This document shows positions 1 through 28,593 of a stretch of DNA of 49,355 bases, piece by piece. Location of the stretch: positions 1-49,355 of the forward strand of contig JAJTGZ010000011.1 in NCBI GenBank assembly GCA_021299385.1, written 5' to 3'. The position numbers and the translations under genes are program-made. Source of the stretch: Phycisphaeraceae bacterium. Its GTDB lineage: Bacteria > Planctomycetota > Phycisphaerae > Phycisphaerales > UBA1924. A model generated the notes under the pieces. It was not told the DNA's origin. It ran no database searches and was given only the letters and a program-made list of their open reading frames with translations. Position 1 is the stretch's first letter, and each line of letters opens with the position of its first letter.

Positions 1-330
1 CCCAACCCCCGACGCCCCACCCCCGCCGCAACCCGACCCGCTCGCCAGCAAGACGGACGCATGACCGCCCACTCACCTCGCAGCAACCGCCGCCCGCACA
101 AACTCGGCCATCGTCCGCTCTACAACGTGCGCCGACGCGTCCCGAGGGCCTACAACCCCTGCCGCTCCGACGCGCTCGACCCCCAACGGCCAGGCACAAC
201 TCTTGACCACACCTCGGCCATTGCCCAGAGCCAAACAGCCGTGGGCAGCAACCTCATCGCCCTGTCAAAGGCTCTCCGCGGGCTGCGCGAGCCGATCGAC
301 GAGGCCTCGAAAACGAAACTCGACCTATGA
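1..330 (+). CDS. 3' end of a hypothetical protein, cut by window edge
   Basis: The frame is open from the first base to a TGA at 328-330, so this may be the C-terminal part of a gene that starts outside the window. The first internal ATG is at 61 (89 residues from there). Codons are strongly biased to G or C in third position, which supports coding. The first half is Arg/Pro-rich. The last roughly 40 residues look like a helix (TSAIAQSQTAVGSNLIALSK) followed by LREPIDEASKTKLDL. I do not recognise a family. It points toward the glycosyltransferase gene on the opposite strand, so the two would be convergent. It could also be chance open frame in GC-rich DNA. Confidence 0.3.
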   Translation, partial: PNPRRPTPAATRPARQQDGRMTAHSPRSNRRPHKLGHRPLYNVRRRVPRAYNPCRSDALDPQRPGTTLDHTSAIAQSQTAVGSNLIALSKALRGLREPIDEASKTKLDL

Positions 331-393
331 ACGCCTACACAGGTCACAAGGCAAGTCCCGCACGGCTCAAAACCCCGCGGGCAGCATCGAGAT

Positions 394-1701
394 TCAAGCC
401 CCCAGGGCCGACCTGTGTCTGTGCTCGGACACCACGGCCCAGCACAAACACAACGCAAACACCAGCATGCACCACGACGGCCCAGCCGCGCGTTGCCACG
501 CCACCACTGACTCCCGCGCACTCACCCCCCCCGGCGGCAGCACAAACCCGGCCACCAGCACCGCGCACCCGATACCCACCACCCACCGCGCCGCCGCCCG
601 CCGAGTCGACAACAGGCACGCCACCGCCACCATCACCGGGATGAGCATCTGCACCAGATGCGGCGAGTTTGTCTGCGGGCTAAAACAGAGCACAGCGATG
701 ATCAGCAGCGACCACTCCAGCGCGACGATATCCCCCATCCCCTGCTCCCCCGCAGGCCTGTTGAACACCTTGACGCCGTAACGCCGGTAGAGCATCACCA
801 CGGCTAGGCCAAACGCACCCGCGACCGCCCCCACCAGCGCCACCGTCAGCAGGTTCATCCCCGCCGAGGCTGTCTGGCGTGCCGCCCACGAGGTAATCGC
901 AACCCCGATCGACTGCACCGGCATCACCTTGGCCCCCACGGCCTCTGCGGGGTCTCCCGCCATGCCCGCAAGCCCCCGCATCGCCCGCACCAGATACTCA
1001 GCGTTCTGGCTCCAACCAAGGTACAACGCCGGCACCAGCGCCCACAATGCCGCCGAGCCCACCGTCGCCCCCGCCGCCGCGAACCTCTTGCGCAGCAACA
1101 AATACGGCACCGCCGCCAGTGTTACATACTTGATATTCGCCCCAAACCCCAACGCAACCCCAGCCAGCACAGGCCGACGCACCATCCACCGCAGCGCGAG
1201 CAGCCAGCAGAGCACCATCAACAGGTTGCTCTGGCCCATGTTCATCTCCGCACGCAACTTGTCGGCCAGCAGCAGCAGCACTCCAAGCGCAAACGCGGCA
1301 AAGGTCATCGCATCCCGCCGAAGGTTGAACCGCCTGGTCATCTCATCAGCGCCCAGCACCAGGATCAGCACCAGCAGCGCCAGCCGAATGCACAGCCACA
1401 CCACCCCGGCTACCTGTATCCCCAGCGCGACCAAAGGCGCCATCAGCACCGCCAGCAGTGGGGGGTAGATGTACCCGAGCTCCCCCGCCTTGTACAGGTC
1501 CGTACCCCGCACCAGCGCCTCGGCACCACTATAAAACTCGTAAAAATCCCGGAACTGCCGGTCCAGCGGCTCACCCGCACGCGTCATGCGGTTCACCGAG
1601 CCCGTCGCCAGCCAAGTCAACAACCCCACTATTCCCAACACCATCGCCACCGTCGCGGCCCGTTCCAGTGCGCTGCGACCCCTCGTGTGTGCCTCGGGCA
1701 T
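394..1701 (-). CDS. GT87 family (DUF2029) membrane glycosyltransferase
   Basis: The 435-residue polytopic membrane protein has the signature of the GT87/DUF2029 family: an N-terminal helix at about 16-36, then a short extracytoplasmic loop with FRDFYEFYSGAEALVRGTDLY and the YIYPPLLAVLMAP motif. Family members such as actinobacterial mannosyltransferases transfer sugars from polyprenyl-phosphate donors on the outer face of the membrane; the acceptor here is unknown. About ten further hydrophobic segments follow, which is normal for the family. The ATG has no Shine-Dalgarno sequence, but a TATGCT hexamer (1710-1715, minus strand) lies 8 nt upstream, so the leader may be very short. The family call is firm and the substrate is not inferable. 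Confidence 0.85.
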   Translation of the reverse strand: MPEAHTRGRSALERAATVAMVLGIVGLLTWLATGSVNRMTRAGEPLDRQFRDFYEFYSGAEALVRGTDLYKAGELGYIYPPLLAVLMAPLVALGIQVAGVVWLCIRLALLVLILVLGADEMTRRFNLRRDAMTFAAFALGVLLLLADKLRAEMNMGQSNLLMVLCWLLALRWMVRRPVLAGVALGFGANIKYVTLAAVPYLLLRKRFAAAGATVGSAALWALVPALYLGWSQNAEYLVRAMRGLAGMAGDPAEAVGAKVMPVQSIGVAITSWAARQTASAGMNLLTVALVGAVAGAFGLAVVMLYRRYGVKVFNRPAGEQGMGDIVALEWSLLIIAVLCFSPQTNSPHLVQMLIPVMVAVACLLSTRRAAARWVVGIGCAVLVAGFVLPPGGVSARESVVAWQRAAGPSWCMLVFALCLCWAVVSEHRHRSALGA

Positions 1702-1841
1702 GATCTAGCAGCATAGCCCGTGGATGCACCGTCAGGAGAACAAGACCCCCACCTTCACCCCCGCCCACGCAGCAGGCACCCCTCATCAAGCACGCAACCA
1801 TCCAACGCCACGACCACTTCGCCAAAGCCTTCGAGGCAGGC

Positions 1842-1926
1842 AAGTGAGCGACGAGCGACGAGTAAAGGCAGGCGCACGGCCTGTGCTTGTCTTTCCTCAT
1901 CGCTCATCGCTCGCCACTCATCGCTT
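1842..1926. repeat. heptad repeat family B, inverted pair
   Basis: Two short tracts of the period-7 repeat GAGCGAY lie in opposite orientation, at 1844-1865 (plus) and 1897-1925 (minus), separated by about 30 nt. Together they could fold into an imperfect hairpin. The right arm supplies the last codons and the TGA stop (1904-1906) of the small membrane-protein gene on the minus strand. The same repeat occurs at 36724-36747 and 47600-47630. Confidence 0.7.
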
Positions 1927-2212
1927 TCCTTCCCCCCTCCGCGCTGGCCATCGCCGCCACGAACAGCGTCCACGCCGGGAAGAGCTCTAACACAGGCACC
2001 ACCTCGATACCCAACGCTATCAGCAACGGCCACCGGAACCCCAGCACCGCAAAGAGCACCAGCGCCGTCGCCACATCGAGCACCCACTGCACGGGGGGCA
2101 AAAACACCATCCCAAACCCCAGCACATCAGACACCCCCGCCACCAGCAACGCCCATCGCCACCTCGGCAACCTCCACGCCACCAAAAACTGCTCGTACAA
2201 CCTCTTCAACAC
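1904..2212 (-). CDS. small hypothetical membrane protein
   Basis: From a GTG at 2212 this encodes 102 residues; an alternative TTG follows directly and an ATG exists at 2278. The protein begins LKRLYEQFLVAWRLPRW and has three hydrophobic segments: about 17-35 (ALLVAGVSDVLGFGMVFL), 40-58 and 62-85. The GTG is preferred because a GGGAAGGGG tract precedes it and the residues upstream look non-coding. The C-terminus (KAMSGER, stop) is encoded by a dispersed heptad repeat, so the original 3' end may have been replaced by repeat sequence. I do not recognise a family. Confidence 0.55.
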   Translation of the reverse strand: MLKRLYEQFLVAWRLPRWRWALLVAGVSDVLGFGMVFLPPVQWVLDVATALVLFAVLGFRWPLLIALGIEVVPVLELFPAWTLFVAAMASAEGGRKAMSGER

Positions 2213-2282
2213 GCCACCCCTTCCCCGGCAACCCACCACCACCCTAACCCGTACACCCCTCAACAGGCCCCCCAACACACCC

Positions 2283-2310
2283 TTGACGCACGCCGGCCCG
2301 GTGCTAATCT
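2283..2310 (+). promoter_or_regulatory. promoter of tRNA-Phe
   Basis: TTGACG (2283-2288) and TAATCT (2305-2310) are separated by 16 bp and end 8 bp before the tRNA. This is a good match to a housekeeping sigma promoter, with the start point predicted at the mature 5' end or a few bases before it. Confidence 0.6.
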
Positions 2311-2318
2311 TCCCGCTC

Positions 2319-2391
2319 GGGCAGTTAGCTCAGTTGGTAGAGCACCGCATTGAAAATGCGGGTGTCCCCGGTTCAAGTCCGGGACTGCCCA
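2319..2391 (+). tRNA. tRNA-Phe (GAA)
   Basis: The 73-nt cloverleaf has a 7-bp acceptor stem (GGGCAGT/ACTGCCC, discriminator A), a D arm with AGCTCAGTTGGTAGAGC, anticodon stem CCGCA/TGCGG with loop TTGAAAA giving anticodon GAA, and a T arm with TTCAAGT. CCA is not encoded. A clear promoter lies just upstream. The next gene, phenylalanine hydroxylase, is on the other strand, so there is no operon. Confidence 0.97.
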
Positions 2392-2420
2392 TTCCCCCAC
2401 CCCCAACAAACCACACCTCA

Positions 2421-2454
2421 TTTGACCATTCGGCCATCTGGCCATCTGGCCACC
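2421..2454. repeat. GGCCATCT octamer tandem repeat
   Basis: Between tRNA-Phe and the end of the hydroxylase gene there are two and a half copies of an 8-nt unit, GGCCATCT, at 2432-2452, preceded by a degenerate copy (GACCATTC). It resembles the other short tandem tracts in this window but is seen only once. Confidence 0.5.
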
Positions 2455-2455
2455 T

Positions 2456-3436
2456 TCACACCCTCCCCGCCAACTCCAGCCCCTTCTTACCAATCACCTG
2501 CTCGGCATACGCGTTCATCGCGTCGCGCAGCTGCTCAAAGCTCTCCAGCACGTAGTAAATCGGCTGAAAATGGTCGATCTCAAACGCCGTGCTGCACACG
2601 CGATCTAAATCAAACGCCCTCCACTCCGCCACCGGCCGCTCGACGCACGGCTGCGCTGACTCCGGGCCATCGATCCTCTTCTCCCACGAACCACTTAACG
2701 CATACGGCGCCTCCCCATGGCTGCTCACCAGCCCGCTGCCATAAATCTTCACACGCCCGCCCTCCTTGATAAGCCCAAACTCCACCGTGAACCAGAACAG
2801 CCGCCCAAGCCGCTCGATGTGGTACGGATCATCGCACAACAACGCCGCACGCCCGTACGTCTGCAAAAAGTCCGCAAACACCCGGCTGGCGTGCAGCGGC
2901 ACATGCCCGAACACATCGTGAAAAATGTCCGGCTCGGGCAGATAATCCATCACCTCGCGCGGGCGGATCAGCACCGTCGTCGGGAACTGCCTTGCCGCCA
3001 GGCACGCAAAGAACGACTTGGCCGGCAAGTACCCCGGCACCCCAAAGCTCGCCCAGTCCGAAACCTCCCCCAGGTACCGGTTGATCCCCTCCAACTTCGT
3101 GCCCTTCTTGAGCACCACGCCGTCGCACCCGATGCACTCCTGCTCCAACGCCGTGTCTACTAGCAGCGGTATCCGCTCACCCGTCAGGCGGAGGATCTTC
3201 AACCCATCAATAAACGTTCGGCTGACCTGCTCTTCCAGCACCGACCACCGCCGCTTGAACAACTCACGCCAGACCTCGTGGTTCTCACGCGTGTACTTGT
3301 GGTACCGCTGCGTGATGTAGAACCGGCTCGCGTCGATCTTGCTCGCCGGCAGCCCCGGTGCCGCGTCGGCGTTCTGCTGCGCCAGCCGGGCCTCGTCTGA
3401 GTCGATGATGTTGTTGTACCGGATATCAGCCCGCAT
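2456..3436 (-). CDS. phhA: phenylalanine 4-monooxygenase (aromatic amino acid hydroxylase)
   Basis: This non-haem iron, tetrahydropterin-dependent enzyme hydroxylates phenylalanine to tyrosine in the cytoplasm. The 326-residue protein has the biopterin hydroxylase catalytic core. LPEPDIFHDVFGHVPLH at about 165-180 contains the two iron-ligand histidines (FHD and GHV), and FWFTVEFGLIKEGG carries the ligand glutamate, followed by IYGSGLVSSHGE as in animal and bacterial PAH. There is no ACT regulatory domain, as is usual in bacteria. The ATG at 3436 is chosen because AGGAG lies 8 nt upstream; a GTG 30 nt earlier is possible. Tryptophan hydroxylase activity cannot be excluded from sequence alone. 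No pterin dehydratase gene is adjacent. Confidence 0.93.
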   Translation of the reverse strand: MRADIRYNNIIDSDEARLAQQNADAAPGLPASKIDASRFYITQRYHKYTRENHEVWRELFKRRWSVLEEQVSRTFIDGLKILRLTGERIPLLVDTALEQECIGCDGVVLKKGTKLEGINRYLGEVSDWASFGVPGYLPAKSFFACLAARQFPTTVLIRPREVMDYLPEPDIFHDVFGHVPLHASRVFADFLQTYGRAALLCDDPYHIERLGRLFWFTVEFGLIKEGGRVKIYGSGLVSSHGEAPYALSGSWEKRIDGPESAQPCVERPVAEWRAFDLDRVCSTAFEIDHFQPIYYVLESFEQLRDAMNAYAEQVIGKKGLELAGRV

Positions 3437-14376: not shown

Positions 14377-15132
14377 TTACGCACGGTTAAGCGTGGCAAA
14401 GTCGGCAGGCGCGGGCAGGTCCTTGAGGTTGGCCAGGCCAAAGGCCTCAAGAAACTGGCGCGTGGTGCCATACAGCATCGGACGCCCGAGTTCCTCTGCC
14501 CGGCCGACGATGGTGATCAGCCGGCGCTCCAAAAGCGAGCGCAAGACCTCGCCACAAGCCACCCCACGGATGGCCTCCAGTTTGGCCCGCGTGATCGGCT
14601 GTTTGTACGCGATGATCGCGAGCGTCTCGACGGCGGCCTTCGAGAGCCGCCCGGCGGCCTGCGTCCCGTGGAAGGCGTCCAGAGCCTTGCGGTGGTGCGA
14701 AAGGATCATCACTCGATAACTGCCGGCGAGTTTCTCGATCCGGAACTGCCGGCTGGACTGGGCGTACTGCTCGTTGAGCAACGCGACGGCCTGCTCGATG
14801 AGTGCAACCGGGTCGTGCAAGGCTTTGTTCTTCCGTGGGCGCTTGGGCTTGGGTGTGCAAGCCTCCGTACTCGGAGGTTGGGTTGTGGTGATCGCATCGC
14901 CGTCCTCAAGCAGAGGCTGCTCGGGCGTGATCAGGCCAAGGGCCTGGCCAAGTTTCGTCGGCGGCACCGGCCGCGGGCTGCTGATCAGCAAAGCCTCAAC
15001 CTGCTGCGCGAGCGCGGCGATGTCGGGCTGCGCGCCCTCAATCGGCACCCGCACAGCCTCAGCCGGCGCGAGATCGGCAATCGTGGCAGTGTGGTCGGCT
15101 GGTGTCGTCGAGAGGGTTGGGCTGGCTTCCAT
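14377..15132 (-). CDS. scpB: segregation and condensation protein B
   Basis: ScpB is the winged-helix kleisin partner that, with ScpA and SMC, forms the condensin that compacts and segregates the chromosome. The 251-residue protein has the characteristic second winged-helix motif LSKAAVETLAIIAYKQPITRAKLEAIRGV, then LRSLLERRLITIVGRAEELGRPMLYGTTRQFLEAFGL. The N-terminal 55 residues are variable. There is an internal extension rich in Thr/Pro/Lys between about 75 and 100. The ATG at 15132 is chosen; upstream frame is repeat-derived. A TTTTACACTC box lies about 20 nt before it. scpA is not adjacent in this window. Confidence 0.92.
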   Translation of the reverse strand: MEASPTLSTTPADHTATIADLAPAEAVRVPIEGAQPDIAALAQQVEALLISSPRPVPPTKLGQALGLITPEQPLLEDGDAITTTQPPSTEACTPKPKRPRKNKALHDPVALIEQAVALLNEQYAQSSRQFRIEKLAGSYRVMILSHHRKALDAFHGTQAAGRLSKAAVETLAIIAYKQPITRAKLEAIRGVACGEVLRSLLERRLITIVGRAEELGRPMLYGTTRQFLEAFGLANLKDLPAPADFATLNRA

Positions 15133-15246
15133 GCCTTGGCTCGCTGGGAGTGTAAAAGAGCGGTGCGTCGAGGATATTTTACGCAGGTGGGTGGCTTGCT
15201 GCTCGCGTCGTTGACGGCAGTGGGCTGTCGGTTGTAACTGACAGCC

Positions 15247-15334
15247 GGCGGGTAGATCGCCTCTCCGAGCCGATCCGGGCGGGTAGATCGGCTCTCCGAG
15301 CCGATCCGGGTACCCCGGCTCTCCGAGCCGGGCG
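15247..15334. repeat. palindromic repeat family D, three tandem units
   Basis: Three units each carry a CGGCTC-TCC-GAGCCG hairpin (the first has one mismatch); the second forms a 9-bp stem GATCGGCTC/GAGCCGATC. A single further unit is at 28560-28593. The TCC loop is the same as in family F, although stem sequences differ. Confidence 0.7.
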
Positions 15335-15449
15335 TCTCTGTGATCGCCCGCCGTCATGGTGTCAGAACCCCACCCCCACCCCCCACAACGTTCAGGCTAC
15401 GGGTTCATAGAACGTTGCGACGGTCATCGTCGTGCCGCGCTCGCTTTCC

Positions 15450-15612
15450 CTGCCGGTGTATGCTTGCTCCACTGGCGTCGGCAGACGCAGCAACGACAGC
15501 AGCCAAGCATGCCCGGCAGCAAGGGTGCAATCTTCGTGCCGGGGCAGTCGGGGGGCAGGCCCGCAGCAGGGCCTGGTCCAAGCACGCGGGCCATCGGCAA
15601 GTCCCTTGCCGA
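15450..15612 (+). ncRNA. candidate structured RNA: three consecutive strong hairpins
   Basis: The spacer between scpB and the E2 gene holds no convincing reading frame but has three stable stem-loops in a row. The first is nested: CTGCCGG (15450-15456) pairs with CCGGCAG (15513-15519), ATGCTTG (15460-15466) with CAAGCAT (15504-15510), and GCGTC with GACGC around loop GGCA (15475-15488). The second is AGGCCC/GGGCCT (15557-15574). The third is TCGGCAAG/CTTGCCGA (15594-15612). It could be an independent small RNA or the long leader of the E2 mRNA. It does not contain the conserved core of SRP RNA, RNase P RNA or tmRNA. Structure is seen; function and transcription are inference. Confidence 0.3.
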
Positions 15613-15760
15613 CAAGGCCGTCAAGGGTGGTTGATACCCTTGGTTGCTCGTCGGGGGTGTGGGGGGTGTGTTGGCCTTGGTCCCGGTCTTTGCATACAAG
15701 TCCCCTCGCTTCGTCAACGATTAACAGCGCATCTGCAAGCAACTTTATGAGGCCCCGTTC

Positions 15761-17191
15761 ATGTCCCAGCACACATCGAGCAACCCAAACGAGTTCATCC
15801 TCCCTGACCTGGGCGAGGGCGTGGCCGAGGCGGAACTGATCAAGTGGCGTGTCAAGGTCGGCGATGTCGTACGCGAGCACGACATCCTGGCCGACATGGA
15901 AACAGACAAAGCCCTCGTAGAGGTCCCCTCACCCAGGGGCGGCGCGATCCTCGAACTCCTCGGCAGCGAAGGTGAGATCATCAAGGTCGGCTCGGTGCTC
16001 GTCCGGTTCGGTGAGCCTGCCAGCGCACGCACACCCGTGGCTGCGCCGGTCGTAGTGGAACTGCCAAAGGTGCCCGAGGCACCGTCGACCAACGGCCACA
16101 GCACCCACGCACCGGCAAGCGGCGATGCCGGGACGGTCGTCGGCTCCATGGGTGGTGCCCTCGCCGGCCTATCCGCCGACGGCTCGGCACTGGCAACGCC
16201 CGCCGTACGCAGGCTCGCCCGCGACCTCGGCGTGAACATCGGTGCCGTCGCCGGCACGGGCATCGGCGGACGCGTTACCGAAAAAGATGTCCGCAGCGCA
16301 ACGGGGGCGGGTGCCAAAGTCGCAACCCCCGTCGCCCACTCGGCCCCGCAACCTGTCGCCAAGCCTGCCGAGCCACTGGTCAAGGTTCCGCCACCCGTGC
16401 AACCCGCACCGCGCCCGACACCGGCCCCCGCACCGGCCCCCGCTCCCGCAGCGCCGGCCCGGCCCGTTGCGGCCCCCTCGCCCACCGGCCAAGACGTAAT
16501 CCGTGTCCCATTCAGAGGCGTTCGGCGGACAATCGCCAACCGCCTCCGCGAGAGCGTCAGCAACACCGTCCACTTCACCGTCATGGACGAAGCAGACGTC
16601 TCCGCCCTCGACGCCCTCCGCAAACGCATCGGCGCGGCAAGCGGTGAAAAAGTCAGTTTCCTCCCCTTCGTGGCCGCGGCCGTCTGCCGCTGCCTCGCCG
16701 GCGAGTTCGCCGAGTTCAACAGCACCACCGACGACGCCAAAGAAGAAATCCTCCGCCACCGCGGCGTGCACATCGGCATCGCCACCGACACCGACAACGG
16801 CCTGATGGTGCCGGTGGTGCGCGACTGCGATAAACTCGGCGTCCTCGAGATCAGCCGCCAGATCGCAACCGTCGCCGACAGCGCACGCAACCGCTCGGCA
16901 CCCCGCGACGCCCTCATGGGCAGCACCTTCACCATCAGCAACGTCGGCAGCCACGCGGGCCGGTTCGCAACGCCCATCATCAACTACCCGGAGGTCGGAA
17001 TCCTGGCCGTCGGGCGCGCACGCGATGCCGTCGTGGTCCGCCACGGCGGGATGGCCGTCGGCAAAGTGCTCCCGCTCAGCCTCGCCTGCGACCACCGGGT
17101 TGTCGATGGTGCCTCGGCAGCACTCATGCTCTCACGCATCATCGCCCTGCTCGGCACCCCCGATGAGCTGCTCGGCCCGGCCCGCGGGTGA
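15761..17191 (+). CDS. dihydrolipoamide acyltransferase (E2 of a 2-oxoacid dehydrogenase)
   Basis: The 476-residue E2 component transfers an acyl group from lipoyl-lysine to CoA at the core of a pyruvate- or branched-chain 2-oxoacid dehydrogenase complex. A single lipoyl domain (11-90) carries the target lysine in METDKALVEV (K50). An Ala/Pro/Thr linker leads to the E3/E1-binding domain (about 143-176, ATPAVRRLARDLGV with GTGIGGRVTEKDV). A second APAPAPAPA linker precedes the catalytic domain from about 245, with the active-site motif DHRVVDG (His445, Asp449). GAGG lies 7 nt before the ATG. The E1 and E3 genes are not adjacent, so the substrate (pyruvate or branched-chain) cannot be decided here. 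Confidence 0.93.
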   Translation: MSQHTSSNPNEFILPDLGEGVAEAELIKWRVKVGDVVREHDILADMETDKALVEVPSPRGGAILELLGSEGEIIKVGSVLVRFGEPASARTPVAAPVVVELPKVPEAPSTNGHSTHAPASGDAGTVVGSMGGALAGLSADGSALATPAVRRLARDLGVNIGAVAGTGIGGRVTEKDVRSATGAGAKVATPVAHSAPQPVAKPAEPLVKVPPPVQPAPRPTPAPAPAPAPAAPARPVAAPSPTGQDVIRVPFRGVRRTIANRLRESVSNTVHFTVMDEADVSALDALRKRIGAASGEKVSFLPFVAAAVCRCLAGEFAEFNSTTDDAKEEILRHRGVHIGIATDTDNGLMVPVVRDCDKLGVLEISRQIATVADSARNRSAPRDALMGSTFTISNVGSHAGRFATPIINYPEVGILAVGRARDAVVVRHGGMAVGKVLPLSLACDHRVVDGASAALMLSRIIALLGTPDELLGPARG

Positions 17192-28559: not shown

Positions 28560-28593
28560 CCGGGTAGGTCGGCTCTCCGAGCCGACCCGGGCA
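28560..28593. repeat. palindromic repeat family D, single unit
   Basis: GTCGGCTC-TCC-GAGCCGAC is a perfect 8-bp stem with loop TCC, starting right after the stop codon of the 87-residue gene. It may define the mRNA 3' end. Confidence 0.7.

Follow-up and report, generated by a model that had tools for sequence, protein, structure and literature searches.

Structured 5' leaders are a general kind of element upstream of metabolic genes. A second source of short hairpins in bacterial chromosomes is the repetitive extragenic palindrome (REP), and Di Nocera et al. (2013; PMC3733652) report in their abstract that both kinds of REP occur in deep phyla, the Planctomycetes among them. The spacer described here lies between scpB and a gene for the E2 protein of a 2-oxoacid dehydrogenase in a Phycisphaeraceae genome, carries a confirmed excess of hairpins over chance and borders on a REP cluster. 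We tentatively favour, as possible rather than probable, a reading in which the spacer is specific to its lineage and forms a hairpin-rich 5' leader, or spacer, for an E2 gene that has been relocated.

Gene context of the scpB-E2 spacer

The window, meaning the whole stretch of 49,355 nt that was analysed (contig C104), comes from a 2.63-Mb genome assembled in 111 contigs. The scpB gene (14377-15132, minus strand) was recognised from the Pfam family SMC_ScpB and the list of open reading frames, and the E2 gene (15761-17191, plus strand) from the families 2-oxoacid_dh, Biotin_lipoyl and E3_binding. The two are divergent and separated by 628 bp, so that the spacer lies 5' to both. For scpB a start at 15132 is assumed: the listed frame opens at 15357, and its upstream part translates the REP palindromes. 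Also within the spacer, a stem search detected a perfect 8-bp inverted repeat, CAACGTTC/GAACGTTG, with a 16-nt spacer (15386-15417). On its sequence this is a possible candidate operator for either of the divergent genes; no second copy was present in a 276-kb sample of the genome when up to five mismatches were allowed.

Relatives of the E2 protein came chiefly from metagenome genomes of the Phycisphaerales or Phycisphaeraceae. They gave 109 loci (29, with the window's own copy left out, plus 80), of which 92 included the N-terminus together with 1200 nt or more of upstream sequence. A gene for E1-beta stood directly upstream of E2 on the same strand at 62 of these 92 loci, or 55 of 82 after the merging of duplicates, some of which loci may be paralogs. 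As 27 of the 82 distinct relatives also have no E1-beta upstream, the relocation of E2 is not special to this genome. Here, the E1-alpha and E1-beta genes are on another contig, C22 (Pfam E1_dh, Transket_pyr and Transketolase_C; tblastn), and comparison of E2 with the 6.5 kb around them gave nothing better than E 0.7. Nor were scpB and E2 within 30 kb of one another in any of the 56 other genomes with the best places of both listed, a count made by eye and limited by fragmented assemblies. The E2 gene has left the usual gene order, as in about a third of its relatives, and the scpB-E2 neighbourhood is not conserved.

Contig C22 also holds a partial second copy resembling the C-terminus of E1-beta (L187, positions 1034-1255, minus strand). 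It covers the last 74 residues with 58% identity (E 7.5e-19) and, lying about 2.4 kb downstream of the intact gene, suggests a rearrangement at that place.

Hairpins in excess of chance

The perfect stems reported in the original prediction were confirmed in the sequence at the places where it had put them. They belong to four hairpins on the plus strand. H1 (15450-15519) is 70 nt long with 26 pairs, all of them standard, and contains nested stems at 15450-15456/15513-15519 (7 bp), 15460-15466/15504-15510 (7 bp) and 15475-15479/15484-15488 (5 bp). H2 (15552-15579) includes a 7-bp stem at 15556-15562/15569-15575. H3 (15589-15619) has an 8-bp inner stem (15594-15601/15605-15612) and a 4-bp outer one, with 12 of 12 pairs standard, and H4 (15621-15643) has nine pairs, two of them G-U, around a 7-bp perfect stem at 15622-15628/15636-15642.

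A count of perfect stems (arms of 7 bp or longer, loops of 3-60 nt) gave nine in the region 15340-15760; dinucleotide shuffles averaged 1.56, and none of 5000 reached nine. Of 1000 sequences generated by a second-order Markov model fitted to this region, two did so. Elsewhere in the window (outside 15133-15760), none of 113 non-overlapping tiles of 426 nt reached nine stems, the maximum being eight. Overlapping tiles reached this number in five of 462 cases, three over the spacer and two near 11.8-12.2 kb, where a GCC-rich and mostly coding stretch gave up to 11 stems on overlapping tiles. At the relatives' E2 loci, 4 of 729 tiles had at least seven stems per 200 nt, the density found here, with a maximum of 11; such density is therefore rare, not unique. 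None of the 426-nt regions upstream of E2 at 95 relative loci (not de-duplicated) reached seven stems per 200 nt, a weak control because the majority of these regions contain E1-beta coding DNA. As the region was picked for its hairpins, any chance probability has to be raised by a factor about equal to the number of places inspected. With these scopes, the excess of hairpins above chance is confirmed.

Predicted folding and strand preference

On the plus strand, the segment 15446-15523 folds at -37.3 kcal/mol (z -3.8) and 15546-15645 has z -3.9; in each case none of 400 shuffles was as low. The minus strand gave weaker values for both (-3.0 and -2.9 respectively), a modest difference, and G-U pairs in H2 and H4 are allowed on the plus strand only. 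The joint segment 15446-15645 (plus strand, z -3.2) lies inside the tail of 394 background values from the window, which have a mean of -0.33, a standard deviation of 1.21 and a lowest value of -4.14. Longer cuts fold less strikingly, with z -1.15 for 15420-15665 and z -0.9 for 15340-15760.

In the fold of 15420-15760, H1-H4 stand in a row over 15450-15643, with probabilities of at least 0.99 for the main stems tested; the 5-bp stem inside H1 has 0.84. H2 has probability 1.0 in all five folds that include it, and the inner stem of H3 lies at 0.97-1.0. The outer stem of H1 reaches at least 0.99 in three folds and falls to 0.02 in the fold of 15446-15660; H1 is absent from the minimum-energy fold of 15420-15665. 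H4 has 0.997-0.999 in three folds, dropping to 0.21 in 15446-15645 and 0.75 in 15446-15660. The stem search also found an alternative plus-strand stem that competes with the base of H1, CCCGGCA/TGCCGGG, which spans 15512-15543 (arms 15512-15518/15537-15543); its probability is 0.82 in 15446-15660, and below 0.01 in 15446-15645 and 15420-15760. These competing pairings could represent a switch, or merely an unsettled fold.

Search for relatives of the hairpin region

Searching 162 other genomes of the family by blastn found no convincing relative, with two matches of 32 and 42 bp in long open frames. The short matches (G006, G053 and G102; 32-42 bp) were rejected as relatives and treated as chance because they sit inside such frames. 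A structure model of H1 (R1), with 26 of 26 pairs set correctly, had no relative in 161 other genomes; run on 22 further sequence sources, it found, besides itself, its own reverse strand (18 bits), everything else having E of at least 1.9. No orthologous spacer for comparison was found by either route.

The models of H2-H4 (R2) and H1-H4 (R3) had H3 and H4 offset by one column. As built, 15 of the 31 pairs in R2 were standard (31 of 31 with the corrected structure), and R3 had one of 12 standard pairs in H3 and four of nine in H4. Because of this offset, the negatives for H3 and H4 rest on sequence more than on structure, and the structural search is sound for H1 and H2 only. Over the 162 genomes, R2 gave three weak matches besides the window, with E 0.010-0.036 per genome, which is no more than the chance level over 161 genomes. 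R3, run with stricter filters on 40 genomes, gave four matches besides the window. The best of them (21.9 bits, E 0.0013), in a genome of the same genus, is the strongest result against the region being unconserved. However, the place is covered by long minus-strand frames, presumably those of DnaJ-like and MnmG-like proteins, and the alignment of H1 has several broken pairs; it was treated as chance on both grounds. On 39 further sequence sources, R3 found only itself below E 0.35. The negative result for relatives is limited further by the completeness of the genus's three other genomes, at 55, 86 and 90%. Collections of phages and plasmids gave no match at E 0.01, and one exact 22-base pattern taken from H3 had zero matches in viral contigs. 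As far as searched, the spacer is lineage-specific, with no recognisable relative; a hairpin-rich spacer of this sort cannot be called a conserved RNA.

The failure of blastn and the H1 model to find conservation bears on one alternative, which we regard as doubtful: that the hairpins are functionless, and that a GC-rich, unconstrained spacer happens to be rich in inverted repeats. Such a spacer would fit the equally dense or denser tiles at relatives' loci, the other windows that match the folding z-scores and the existence of alternative folds. The stem count argues against it, being beyond every shuffle and every other non-overlapping tile of the window and rare even under the Markov model that was trained on the region's own composition.

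Coding potential, signals and known RNA families

The absence of coding signal that had been claimed for the region was borne out: G+C by codon phase is 0.64, 0.63 and 0.71 over the hairpins, with no clear periodicity, and five open reading frames spanning the region matched nothing in Pfam at E up to 1. Phase composition and Pfam likewise left a coding remnant unsupported. Neither a sigma-70-like promoter nor an intrinsic terminator was matched at the spacer.

Comparison with Rfam, which the original prediction had proposed as a check, gave no family match over H1-H4, and no riboswitch among them. At gathering scores, the only matches in the window are two tRNAs; at E up to 10, the segment 15100-15900 has two matches (E 2.5 and 3.5), far under the cut-offs and outside H1-H4, covering the REP cluster (15217-15324) and 15700-15748. 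A suggested resemblance to the distal arm of SRP RNA did not hold, no SRP match being obtained at E up to 10 in 15100-15900. Bacterial SRP RNA (RF00169) is ruled out as the identity of H1-H4, there being no model match and the genome having its SRP RNA elsewhere, on contig C13, at 46.6 bits against a 40-bit cut-off. The tip of the distal arm of that RNA (L001, positions 1501-1597) is, by eye, apparently without GGAA. The genome has no match to 6S RNA (RF00013), but the same search was silent in 9 of 14 control genomes too, which deprives this negative of weight.

These searches weigh on the suggestion that H1-H4 make up a small RNA gene of their own, about 200 nt long and specific to the lineage, between the divergent genes. 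We think this unlikely. The compact run of hairpins at about 15450-15643 would suit it, as would the orientation of the neighbours, neither of which needs a terminator there; however, H1-H4 match no Rfam family, the H1 model has no relative in the 161 other genomes, and neither a promoter nor an intrinsic terminator was matched. The original proposal of a structured RNA between scpB and E2 thus stands as far as local structure and lack of coding signal go. Its role as E2 leader or small RNA was not confirmed, given that no orthologous spacer was found, that E2 stands behind E1-beta at most distinct relative loci and that no promoter or terminator was matched. Either kind of working RNA is possible.

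REP palindromes at the left edge

Three head-to-tail REP palindromes on the plus strand (repeat family D1) occupy 15252-15333. Two are tagged with GTAG, at 15252-15275 (one mismatch) and 15283-15306 (no mismatch), where none is expected in shuffles; in the third, at about 15310-15333, the outer stem is changed and GTAC replaces the tag. The interval first proposed for the structured RNA, 15335-15760, includes the hairpin stretch, but the tail of this cluster takes up its first letters (15335 to about 15340).

Exact REP cores number 56 in the whole genome (29 + 27), against 0 + 1 for the backward pattern. Their consensus is a 9-bp stem with a 3-nt loop, and some form head-to-tail clusters; in the 33 copies that were read, GTAG precedes the stem in 31 and the outer stem changes in pairs. 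The palindromes at 15252-15333 belong to a set of many short, dispersed palindromes that carry GTAG on one side, and so represent a known kind of repeat, the GTAG-tagged REP. The window has a further copy at 28564-28587, and one other place in the genome (L078, contig C7) has the two hairpins in the same arrangement, with the GGGCGTCT tail as well.

Seven pieces of H1-H4 showed no recurrence beyond shuffled controls in the 276-kb sample, about 10% of the genome, in which the REP pattern had 17 matches. A mobile origin for H1-H4, as DNA-level palindromes akin to the adjoining REPs, is accordingly improbable: the genome does have an IS200-type transposase frame, along with two other Y1_Tnp matches, but in that sample the hairpin pieces do not recur as the REPs do and match no phage or plasmid at E 0.01.

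A RAYT transposase with REPs on its flanks was sought among the three Y1_Tnp matches: the one that lies outside tRNA synthetase frames is of IS200 type, and the 3 kb around it have no exact REP loop core. A class I tRNA synthetase frame on contig C87 (L183, 1-2091 on the minus strand), which we take to be valyl, contains an in-frame Y1_Tnp segment (E 7.8e-7, residues 502-583) with repeat-like peptide flanks and no stop in the frame. On contig C88 (L184, plus strand, 103-3150), a leucyl-tRNA synthetase-like frame with an editing domain has a similar segment, scoring 23.9 bits in one search and 20.3 in another against a cut-off of 23. A literature search returned no paper with such inserts in tRNA synthetases as the subject of its title; passages of one source record that tRNA synthetase genes in other species contain plain REPs (PMC3733652). 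Two synthetases of one genome with Y1_Tnp-like inserts merit separate study.

The spacer as a leader of the E2 gene

Strand preference and position are the reasons for putting the leader reading first. The E2 gene is separated from its usual E1-beta partner, and the spacer there would be lineage-specific DNA. Beyond the observed hairpins, their excess and the gene order, we infer that the E2 transcript would start to the left of about 15450 and carry H1-H4 in its 5' leader, about 118-311 nt upstream of the start codon, where they might influence mRNA stability or the access of ribosomes. In favour of this leader count the plus strand, which is that of E2, and its better folding; against it count the lack of a promoter match, the z of only -0.9 for the whole spacer and the yielding of H1 and H4 in some cuts.

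A more specific model, in which H1-H4 would form a lineage-specific structured RNA of about 195 nt and the competing pairings at the foot of H1 would act as a switch in the leader of an operon-departed, pyruvate dehydrogenase-type E2, seems to us most improbable. If the hairpins form a working RNA, they would show how an enzyme gene detached from its operon acquires control of its own. As matters stand, the locus is chiefly a caution: even where hairpins in a GC-rich planctomycete spacer far outnumber chance expectation, they can be lineage-specific and REP-adjacent.

Comparison with described elements

With bacterial SRP RNA (RF00169) the spacer shares the eleven letters AGCAGCCAAGC at 15498-15508, but it gives no match to the covariance model. 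Its left-edge cluster fits the GTAG REPs described by Di Nocera et al. (2013; PMC3733652) in tag, stem, loop, paired outer-stem changes and clustering, whereas H1-H4 are single-copy as far as sampled. From the structured 5' leaders of metabolic genes it differs in that no conservation and no Rfam riboswitch match were found; what it has in common with them is a set of hairpins upstream of an enzyme gene, on the coding strand.
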